A stretch of 64,000 nt of DNA, from positions 1-64,000 of the forward strand of contig NZ_CP040020.1 of NCBI RefSeq assembly GCF_005280295.1, given 5' to 3'. Below the pieces are notes generated by a model. The model worked only from the letters and a program-made list of their open reading frames with translations. It did no database searches and had not been told where the DNA came from. The first letter of the stretch is position 1, and each line of letters begins with the position of its first letter. This DNA comes from Brevibacterium sp. CS2 (GTDB lineage: Bacteria; Actinomycetota; Actinomycetes; Actinomycetales; Brevibacteriaceae). A program made the translations under genes and the position numbers. Shown piece after piece: positions 27,046 through 50,587 of the stretch.

Positions 27046-27123
27046 GAAAGTCCCGCGATTCCTGCAATCCCCCTCACAACCTGTTCAGGTCGAAGGGGTG
27101 AGTGCAGGAATTGCGGGACTTTC
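27046..27123. repeat. Palindromic intergenic repeat, copy 1 (upstream of nuclease-like gene)
   Basis: A 21-base arm (27046-27066) pairs with 27103-27123 with one mismatch. Inside lies CACAACCTGTTCAGGT (27075-27090), itself partly palindromic. The element shares the outer TCCCGC, the CTGCA and the CACAACCTG core with the copy at 28250-28315. It may also terminate the usp transcript. Confidence 0.8.
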
Positions 27124-27217
27124 CCCTCATGGAGCCCTGTGACCTGAGGACGGGCAGTCGTCCACAGGCAGTGGAGGGGGTCTTGTCCGGGGCTGCCGGG
27201 CGATGGAGCCTGGTGCC

Positions 27218-28225
27218 ATGAGCCTCATCGTCACTCAGCAGGATCTGTTCGATCATGGGGCGCACTGGCGCACGATATCCGCCATGACGGCGTGCTGCCT
27301 CAAGCGACTGATGCCCGGCGTGTACCTGCTGCACCGCCGATGCACCGAACCGCTCCACCGCCCCGGCACCCGGATGATCGAACCGATCGATGACGACCGC
27401 TTGGCATCACTCGGGTCGAACACCGCGCACATCCGCTACGCCGCCGGTCGTGCCCTCCTCATCGAGGCGTTCACCGCAACCGGGCATGGGGGCCGGCTCG
27501 TCTCGAGCGGAGCTGCGGTGTTCTCGCACGGCAGTGCCGCCCATCTCCATGCCCTCCCCTTCGCGATCGACGAGAGACCGCTGGTCGAGGTGCAGCGACC
27601 GGGCAAGAGCAGGCAGAAGGGGTACACCCGGCTCCGATCGATGCAGGTCGGTGCCGATCAGATCGTGGAGGTCTCGGGACTGCGCACCACCTCGCCCGCA
27701 CGGACCGTCCTGGACATCGCACGCACCCGGGGCCTCGACCAAGGGCTGCCGATGGCCGAGGCCGCCCTTCGCAGCGGAGCGCTCACCGCCGAGGACCTCA
27801 TCGTCTCTCGGGACTCGCATCCCGGCAGGCGACTGCACGTCGATGACGCGCTGCTCCGCCTCCTCAGCGGGCGCAGCGAGAGCGCGGGCGAAGCACTCCT
27901 CAAGATCCGTCTCGATCGTGCCGGGCTGCTCGGCGACCTGGTCGAGCAGTATTCGGTGTACGACGAGCACGGGTTCGTCGCACGTGTGGACTTCGCCCAC
28001 TCCGGGACGAAGCTCGCGATCGAGTTCGACGGCTACGGGAAGTACTTCCTCGATGATGCGGACGGCCGGGCGGCGCTGAAGCAGGAGCGTCGGCGGGAAG
28101 CCGACCTGCGCGCCGCCGGCTGGGAGGTCATCCGCGTCGAATGGCGCGATCTCTTCGACCCGGCGGCGATGCGACGCCTGTGCGCACGCATCGCTCGGCA
28201 CCTCGCAACCCGCAGTGCCGCTTGA
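27218..28225 (+). CDS. AbiEi-like N-terminal domain plus Vsr/DUF559-like nuclease domain protein
   Basis: The 335-residue protein begins with an AbiEi-type winged-helix-like region (LKRLMPGVYLL). Its middle region has a SPARTVLDIA signature and its end is a Vsr/DUF559-like PD-(D/E)XK domain. A core RVDFAHSGTKLAIEFDGYGK is followed by ERRREADLRAAGWEVIRVEW, with the Asp, Glu and Gln/Glu-Arg residues typical of that nuclease fold. Such genes are frequent, often in several copies, in Actinobacteria and have no firm function. The ATG at 27218 has GGAG upstream; an earlier ATG at 27203 is possible. It is a lone gene bracketed by two related palindromes. Confidence 0.75.
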   Translation: MSLIVTQQDLFDHGAHWRTISAMTACCLKRLMPGVYLLHRRCTEPLHRPGTRMIEPIDDDRLASLGSNTAHIRYAAGRALLIEAFTATGHGGRLVSSGAAVFSHGSAAHLHALPFAIDERPLVEVQRPGKSRQKGYTRLRSMQVGADQIVEVSGLRTTSPARTVLDIARTRGLDQGLPMAEAALRSGALTAEDLIVSRDSHPGRRLHVDDALLRLLSGRSESAGEALLKIRLDRAGLLGDLVEQYSVYDEHGFVARVDFAHSGTKLAIEFDGYGKYFLDDADGRAALKQERRREADLRAAGWEVIRVEWRDLFDPAAMRRLCARIARHLATRSAA

Positions 28226-28249
28226 CCACCCGGTCCGAATCACGAAACT

Positions 28250-28315
28250 CCCGCAGAAACTGCAGTGGCCCGCACAACCTGAACAGGTTGTGCGGGCCAC
28301 TGCAGTTTTCGCGGG
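28250..28315. repeat. Palindromic intergenic repeat, copy 2 (downstream of nuclease-like gene)
   Basis: A perfect 25-base arm (28257-28281) and its complement (28284-28308) flank a 2-base AA centre, with outer CCCGC / GCGGG at 28250-28254 and 28311-28315. The centre reads CACAACCTGAACAGGTTGTG. It lies between the convergent nuclease gene and sucD and would act as a strong bidirectional terminator. Confidence 0.9.
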
Positions 28316-28355
28316 CATCTGCCGCAAGGCAGCCCCGCGGCCTGTCGCCTGGAGA

Positions 28356-49235: not shown

Positions 49236-49276
49236 ACGAGGGCCGTCGAGGTGATCATCACCTCGGCGGCCCTCGT
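49236..49276 (+). terminator. Terminator after cstA-ybdD (hairpin copy 1)
   Basis: 20-base arms with one G/T wobble around a single C (centre GAGGTGATCATCACCTC). It is almost identical to the hairpin at 50531-50563, including the flanking CTCGTCGCGTCC. Confidence 0.8.
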
Positions 49277-49383: not shown

Positions 49384-49406
49384 GTGCGGCGCGGACCGCG
49401 CCGCAC
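49384..49406 (+). promoter_or_regulatory. Palindrome in the leader of the butanediol-dehydrogenase-like gene
   Basis: Perfect 11-base arms GTGCGGCGCGG / CCGCGCCGCAC around one A, 22 bases before the ATG. A TACCGT -10 is possible at 49372-49377. It could be an operator or an RNA hairpin limiting translation. Confidence 0.45.
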
Positions 49407-49428
49407 ACTTTCCGATGGGAGAATCACT

Positions 49429-50490
49429 ATGAGAGCTGCCCGCTACTACGACCGTAAGGACATCCGGATCGAGGAGATCCCCGAGCCGGAGCTGAAACCC
49501 GGAGCAGTCGCCATCGATGTCGCCTGGTGCGGCATCTGCGGCACCGATCTGCACGAGTACCTCGAGGGTCCGATCTTCATCCCGCCGAAGGGTTCACCGC
49601 ACCCGATCTCCGGCGAGGAGGCCCCGGTGACCATGGGCCACGAGTTCTCCGGCACCGTCACCGCGCTCGGCGAGGGCGTCACCGACCTCGAGGTCGGGCA
49701 GAACGTCGTCGTCGAGCCCTACATCATCCGCGACGACGTCGAGGTCGGCCCCGGCCGCTCCTACCACCTCTCCCCCGACATGAACTTCATCGGCCTCGGC
49801 GGCCGCGGAGGCGGGCTGTCGGAGAAGATCGTCGTCGAGCGCCGCTGGGTCCACCCGATCGGCGACATCCCGCTCGATCAGGCCGCTCTCATCGAACCGC
49901 TGTCCGTGGGCCACCACGCCTTCGTGCGCAGCGGAGCGGGATCCGGTGATGTCGCGCTCGTCGGCGGGGCGGGCCCGATCGGCCTGCTCACCGCGGCCGT
50001 GCTCAAGGCCGAGGGGCTCACCGTCTACATCTCGGAGCTCAGCGAGGCCCGCAAGGCGAAGGCCCGGGAGACCGGGGTGGCCGACGAGGTGTTCGACCCG
50101 CGCGAGGTCGACGTCGCCGAGCGCGTCCGTGAGCTCACCGACGGCCAGGGCGCCGACGTGGGCTTCGAGTGCAGCTCGGTGCCGGTGGTCCTCGACACCC
50201 TCATGGACGCAGTGCGCCCGAACGGCGTCATCGTCAACGTCTCGATCTGGGGCAGAAAGCCCGAGGTCGACATGCCGACGCTCGTGCTCAAGGAGATCGA
50301 CCTGCGCGGCACGATCGGCTACGCGAACGATCACCCTGCGACCATCCGTCTCGTGCAGGAGGGGCGGATCGATCTCGCCCCGTTCATCACCGGACGGATC
50401 GGGCTCGACGGACTCGTGGACGAGGGGTTCGACCAGCTCATCAACAACAACGAGGAGCACGTCAAGATCCTCGTCGATCCGAACGCCTGA
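49429..50490 (+). CDS. Zinc-dependent (R,R)-butanediol dehydrogenase-type alcohol dehydrogenase
   Basis: The 353-residue MDR enzyme has zinc-site motifs WCGICGTDLHEYLEGP and TMGHEFSGTV. The NAD fold GGAGPIGLLTAAVLKAEG follows and PVVLDTLMDAVRPNGVIVNV lies in the second half. It probably interconverts 2,3-butanediol and acetoin; other sugar-alcohol or threonine-type substrates are possible. The usual structural-zinc four-Cys lobe is absent, as in this subfamily. GGGAG lies seven bases before the ATG. It is monocistronic, bounded by two similar hairpins. Confidence 0.87.
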   Translation: MRAARYYDRKDIRIEEIPEPELKPGAVAIDVAWCGICGTDLHEYLEGPIFIPPKGSPHPISGEEAPVTMGHEFSGTVTALGEGVTDLEVGQNVVVEPYIIRDDVEVGPGRSYHLSPDMNFIGLGGRGGGLSEKIVVERRWVHPIGDIPLDQAALIEPLSVGHHAFVRSGAGSGDVALVGGAGPIGLLTAAVLKAEGLTVYISELSEARKAKARETGVADEVFDPREVDVAERVRELTDGQGADVGFECSSVPVVLDTLMDAVRPNGVIVNVSIWGRKPEVDMPTLVLKEIDLRGTIGYANDHPATIRLVQEGRIDLAPFITGRIGLDGLVDEGFDQLINNNEEHVKILVDPNA

Positions 50491-50530: not shown

Positions 50531-50563
50531 GGGCCGCCGAGGTGATCATCACCTCGGCGGCCC
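50531..50563 (+). terminator. Terminator after the butanediol-dehydrogenase-like gene (hairpin copy 2)
   Basis: Perfect 16-base arms (GGGCCGCCGAGGTGAT) around one C, 40 bases after the stop. It also lies 25 bases past the end of the convergent exonuclease gene. Confidence 0.85.
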
Positions 50564-50587
50564 TCGTCGCGTCCGGCCGTGCCCGGG

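Follow-up and report, generated by a model that had tools for sequence, protein, structure and literature searches.

Why does a gene for an AbiEi/DUF559-like protein in Brevibacterium sp. CS2 lie between two long palindromes that resemble each other? The answer that we consider probable is that gene and palindromes form a REP-like repeat system in which an AbiEi-Vsr-type nuclease takes the place of a RAYT transposase. The locus lies in a window (the whole stretch of DNA analyzed, 64 kb) from a genome of 3.24 Mb in a single contig, and consists of the following features, with bit scores referring to the covariance model R2 described below.

27051-27118, no strand assigned: left palindrome of the own family, two arms of 32-33 nt around a centre of 2-4 nt (75.7 bits); the wider pairing spans 27046-27123
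27203-28225, plus strand: gene of 340 aa, an AbiEi-like DNA-binding region fused to a Vsr/EDxHD-type nuclease domain; alternative start at 27218
27212-27868, plus strand: AbiEi-antitoxin-like region, residues 4-222 (match to 6y8q, Z 11.0, rmsd 7.0 over 169 residues)
27881-28210, plus strand: nuclease domain, residues 227-336 (structural matches 3r3p and 1cw0)
28249-28316, no strand assigned: right palindrome of the own family, 68 nt (86.5 bits)

The bracketing of the gene by two long, related palindromes, first claimed in a preliminary description of this DNA, proved real. The inverted repeats at 27046-27123 (38-nt arms, complementarity 82%) and 28250-28315 (32-nt arms, complementarity 94%) are the two longest in the whole window, and in register they become elements of 68 nt each that align without a gap. 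TCCCGC, CTGCA and the core CACAACCTG-NN-CAGGT are common to both, as had been stated, but the core of the left palindrome is imperfect, its 3' half reading CAGGTCGAAG instead of CAGGTTGTG. By itself the short core ACCTGNNCAGGT is uninformative, occurring at 6 places in the genome of which 3 are chance sites. A third own-family copy of the core, at 646505-646572, has no gene of this kind next to it.

Among 57 Brevibacterium genomes, only one other, G011, has an orthologous gene. Its product is the nearest homologue (59% identity), and the gene occupies the same place before sucD, also between two palindromes. The two window palindromes, the copy at 646505-646572 and the two palindromes flanking the G011 gene can be aligned without gaps, and from these five 68-nt sequences we built R2. 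Run over the 57 genomes, the model detected the family at 12 sites of the own genome (E ≤ 0.0013) and at 15 sites of G011 (E < 1e-4); five of these matches were model input, and the remainder are independent of it. The best match outside the two genomes had E = 0.004, and in none of the other Brevibacterium genomes of the set did the family rise above chance level. The scan therefore places the dispersed family in exactly the two genomes with the orthologous gene; over all families examined, the genus-wide search for palindromes near this gene family, proposed at the outset, found dispersed copies almost exclusively where the cognate gene is present. A chance origin of the window palindromes is ruled out by their rank among the window's inverted repeats and by the specificity of their family to two genomes.

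The earlier label of an AbiEi/DUF559-like gene is borne out by PADLOC, which identified AbiEi clearly from sequence alone (5.8e-11), and by structure, which makes both parts clear (AlphaFold2 model, mean pLDDT 89); by sequence, the MTES_1575/DUF559 match is weak. In profile and fold, the N-terminal and middle region resembles the antitoxins of type IV AbiE systems, such as S. agalactiae AbiEi and M. tuberculosis Rv2827c, and AbiEi_4 was detected in 18 of 52 homologues. In the model, residues 227-336 match the catalytic domain of the EDxHD homing endonuclease I-Bth0305I (3r3p; Z 12.2, rmsd 2.4 over 97 residues) and Vsr (1cw0; Z 10.4). E230, D263, E274, G277, K280 and R298 are invariant across 52 actinomycete homologues, and D263, E274, K280 and E230 are kept in 91/91 Brevibacterium genes. 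Judged by its modeled fold and this conserved acidic active site, the protein belongs to the EDxHD/Vsr nuclease superfamily and is probably a DNA-cutting protein. It differs from I-Bth0305I and Vsr in the invariant K280 after the E-x-D-G motif, and in being encoded by a free-standing gene between palindromes, with no intron and with putative targets of up to tens of copies per genome. Compared with AbiE systems, it has a nuclease fusion and palindromes that are dispersed as well as present on both sides. Moreover, no adjacent DUF1814 (AbiEii) toxin gene was seen in the neighbor translations read in the window and at the G011 locus, where the neighbors are in both cases a universal-stress-like gene and sucD. 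Nearly all of the 91 Brevibacterium members retain a Cys-Cys...Cys...His set (C31, C32, C47 and H52) that is not conserved across the other actinomycete homologues; it is a possible metal site within the DNA-binding region.

AbiEi and Rv2827c bind pairs of 23-bp inverted repeats located in their own promoters (PMC7319586), and I-Bth0305I is said in a review to dimerize on a target almost 60 bp long (PMC3943268); the palindromes fit both precedents in size and symmetry. The first precedent also favors another explanation, in which a repressor would bind the palindrome upstream of its own gene and the dispersed copies would be a regulon or accidental sites, with no copying involved. The AbiEi-like N-terminal part and the usual location of a palindrome ~80-160 nt ahead of the gene are consistent with this. 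We nonetheless think it unlikely, as it leaves the invariant nuclease active site unexplained and is at odds with a second palindrome copy 3' of the gene, with up to 80 copies per genome, and with dispersed copies that lie past stop codons and not at promoters. In G003, 18 of the 21 placed copies are in tandem or convergent gaps, mostly near stop codons, while one is in a divergent gap and two fall within dubious ORF calls.

The pairing of gene and palindromes extends across the genus. Homologues are present in 56 of the 57 Brevibacterium genomes, usually several in each, and many are bracketed by palindromes that are alike on the two sides of a locus and unrelated between gene clades; each gene clade has one palindrome type. 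The match between upstream and downstream flanks scored at least 24 at 51 of 91 Brevibacterium genes, against a shuffle maximum of 14.5. Outside the genus, palindromes bracket homologues in Dermacoccus, Rothia, Sinomonas, Sanguibacter, Arthrobacter, Pseudarthrobacter, Nocardioides, Pimelobacter, Rhodococcus and others, and the Dermacoccus abyssi half-site has 10 matches, 4 at the gene and 6 elsewhere.

Several loci deserve separate mention. Three paralogues in the own genome (L101, L102 and L103, near 435 kb, 1249 kb and 1802 kb) have unrelated palindromes of their own on one or both sides. A control gene in the window, at 49384-50490, reached a flank score of 46 from its own palindrome pair: a 59-nt stretch that contains the palindrome GGGCCGCCGAGGTGATCATCACCTCGGCGGCCC stands, in nearly identical form, on either side of this zinc-dependent alcohol dehydrogenase gene (49236-49276 and about 50531-50572). 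An 18-gene clade (L033, L365, L368, L391, L377, L379, L374, L384, L369, L359, L023, L032, L037, L039, L353, L043, L363 and L042) keeps all active-site residues, yet has L in place of Y281 beside the invariant K280, and no common palindrome was found within 260 nt of these genes. Its members possibly have a different function or have lost their repeats.

The palindromes share an architecture beneath their differing sequences. Across 24 own-family and G011 copies, pairing in a 32-pair helix holds in 82.8% of cells (32-44% in slid controls), with both sides changed in 23 of the 32 pairs. The covariation score is 0.376, compared with 0.164 ± 0.014 for shuffled and 0.08-0.15 for slid alignments. 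Pairing has thus survived sequence change. The preliminary description took differing arms that still pair as a sign of selection; the covariation is there, but it is not proof of selection, for hairpin-templated repair could yield the same result. The conserved columns (C6, CTGC at 12-15, C25 and CT at 31-32) amount to a motif that recurs 19 columns on. Bracketing palindromes were then extracted automatically and clustered into 26 unrelated groups, and each arm was compared with itself at every offset. Self-matches stood out at 19 nt (z = 7.6; at least 6 of 7 matches in 8 of 26 groups, 0.28 expected) and at 20 nt (z = 3.3; 5 of 26 groups, 0.27 expected), and no other offset exceeded z 1.8 in the 26 groups. 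Each element therefore carries four family-specific motif copies, two per arm, with a spacing within the arm of just under two helical turns.

Dispersal together with a cognate gene is also seen for other families. The family B half-palindrome CGACGCGGTGAWCCGACAWATACGC flanks the gene in G006, G034 and G042, and its matches are dispersed through these same three genomes (29, 17 and 31, respectively); G021 has 2 weak matches, at 3 mismatches, and the other 53 genomes have 0. The CTACC half-palindrome CTACCTGACGGCGGCCCAGCAACCT reaches 57-80 copies per strand in 13 genomes, has fewer elsewhere and is absent from 32, and its reversed-sequence controls gave zero matches. A gene bracketed by the CTACC palindrome was recovered in 19 genomes, and these 19 genes form a single clade (support 100/99). 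No cognate gene was recovered from the 70-contig assembly of G014, which has 57 copies, or from G017 and G049, which have a few copies each. The association of CTACC copies with the gene (Fisher 2e-12) is descriptive only, as the species are related, shared ancestry inflates such co-occurrence counts, and the comparison covers part of the paralogues of the zero-copy genomes.

These repeats leave other marks on the genomes. Contigs C2, C4, C5, C6, C7 and C18 of G009 end within ~50 nt at CTACC palindromes, which therefore break short-read assemblies. A sequence starting GATCCTTCTATG is inserted into CTACC palindromes, once at the centre (L341, downstream flank, in G038; L402, near 1554, in G003), and may be an insertion sequence with these repeats as its target; some IS are known to target REPs. 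Excision was ruled out for the loss of one palindrome in G038, where the inserted sequence was found. A second dispersed palindrome family, of 53 nt and starting TCCGGACGCAGAGTGTCGATTTCG, has more than 20 copies in G034 and G042 (e.g., L085:3260-3312 in G034), and none was seen in G006.

Most dispersed copies lie just past stop codons and may also act as terminators; REPs are known for the same placement, in gaps 3' of genes. That the palindromes are transcription terminators and nothing else, their likeness being incidental or due to gene conversion, we regard as very unlikely. Such a reading would accommodate the position of the dispersed copies, the hairpins found at the same place in other sucD loci, and the fact that both window palindromes follow stop codons, the left one that of usp and the right one those of the gene itself and of sucD, lying 40 nt past the latter. 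However, plain terminators need no family-specific common sequence, and a motif repeated at 19/20 nt is not a terminator property. The palindrome families are, in addition, almost confined to genomes of the cognate gene clade, and an ABC-transporter locus that is empty of the gene has no palindrome.

At this ABC-transporter locus the gene is present in 15 of the 30 species examined, adjoined by palindromes that differ between species; where it is absent, no palindrome scoring at least 13 lies within 500 nt. The pattern indicates that the gene is a mostly inherited resident and that palindromes come and go with it. Joint gain and loss would also suit a single mobile unit, homing or IS-like, with the palindromes as its ends and solo palindromes as end fragments or MITE-like derivatives. 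So would the nuclease domain, which is closest to a homing endonuclease, and the direct orientation of the two flank copies wherever palindromes are asymmetric. We judge a unit of this kind to be quite unlikely, though, because the gene keeps its locus in 15 of 30 species at the ABC site and in both genomes at sucD, which speaks for mostly vertical inheritance, and because each palindrome family has a single gene copy against dozens of solo palindromes.

The proposed comparison of empty sites yielded no clean insertion junctions. The sequences of the own genome and G011 are too diverged, candidate empty sites in G034, G042 and G006 proved common to these genomes, and insertion polymorphisms with clean junctions were not found; the sites are old and common to several species. 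L263 (G000:1480200-1485300) and L282 (G011:1696900-1702100) share a 5-kb stretch that contains two palindromes and shows 98.5% identity, whereas other compared loci of these two species are mostly 75-95% identical; this may reflect recent exchange or strong conservation.

For the REP-like nuclease system that we favor, the gene-palindrome pairing, the dispersal, the co-occurrence and the motif architecture are observed, and we infer that the protein binds and cleaves its palindromes, that repair copies them, and that they still move or spread. The missing clean insertion junctions, the 18-gene clade with its intact active site and no common palindrome, and the CTACC copies in genomes that yielded no cognate gene weigh against this reading. 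The protein would recognize its own palindrome family, and a dimer could occupy the ~60-bp palindrome, given the two short motif copies 19-20 nt apart in each arm. The nuclease would cut at or near a palindrome, and repair from another copy would transfer palindrome sequence between sites. Such cut-and-repair copying would homogenize the copies of a species and carry the family into intergenic gaps, while the gene would stay at one inherited position between two palindrome copies.

This arrangement closely parallels that of REPtrons, in which REP, BIME or REPIN elements are associated with a RAYT (TnpA_REP) gene: in both, the gene stands between palindromes of the family that belongs to it, each gene type has a single family, copies are dispersed, and the gene is largely vertical (PMC6006769; PMC8049555). 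Intergenic copies mostly 3' of genes and doublets at fixed spacing are further points of likeness. The enzyme here, by contrast, is AbiEi-like with a predicted Vsr/EDxHD nuclease and not HUH/Y1, and the palindromes measure 56-68 nt, each arm repeating its motif at a spacing of 19-20 nt. Y1_Tnp (PF01797) had no match in the five genomes tested, with control matches in E. coli and others, and a GT[AG]G tag forms no conserved column in the own family and is not visible in the other families. Since neither the gene nor the five genomes tested supply a Y1 transposase, and the GT[AG]G tag is missing, the system is not a REPtron; it works like REP/RAYT but is not one. The genus-wide gene-palindrome pairs, the cognate-restricted dispersal, the clade-specific palindromes and the lack of Y1 support the original suggestion of a REP-like system with a Vsr/DUF559-type nuclease replacing RAYT.

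REP families are widespread, and RAYTs are, to our knowledge, the only enzymes known to be tied to them. For some families, CGTC REPs among them, no enzyme is known (PMC3733652). In the literature that we searched, which did not extend to most subscription papers and preprints, no description was found of a REP-type system with DUF559, AbiEi or MTES_1575; the novelty of an AbiEi-Vsr palindrome system is not proven by this. We tentatively advance, as a possibility, that AbiEi-Vsr double-strand nucleases represent a second, independent REP-type class across Actinomycetota, multiplying their own palindromes by cutting and repair, with specificity re-evolving in each clade and the 19-20 nt architecture remaining fixed. 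If a nuclease not homologous to RAYTs holds the same relation to its repeats, this arrangement would be shown to have arisen more than once. The system would offer dozens of ready nuclease-target pairs from nature, whose sites measure 60 nt and whose specificity changes, and makes the spread and persistence of dispersed palindromes testable. It further points to a role for many solitary AbiEi/DUF559 genes that current annotation lists as antitoxin-like or unknown.
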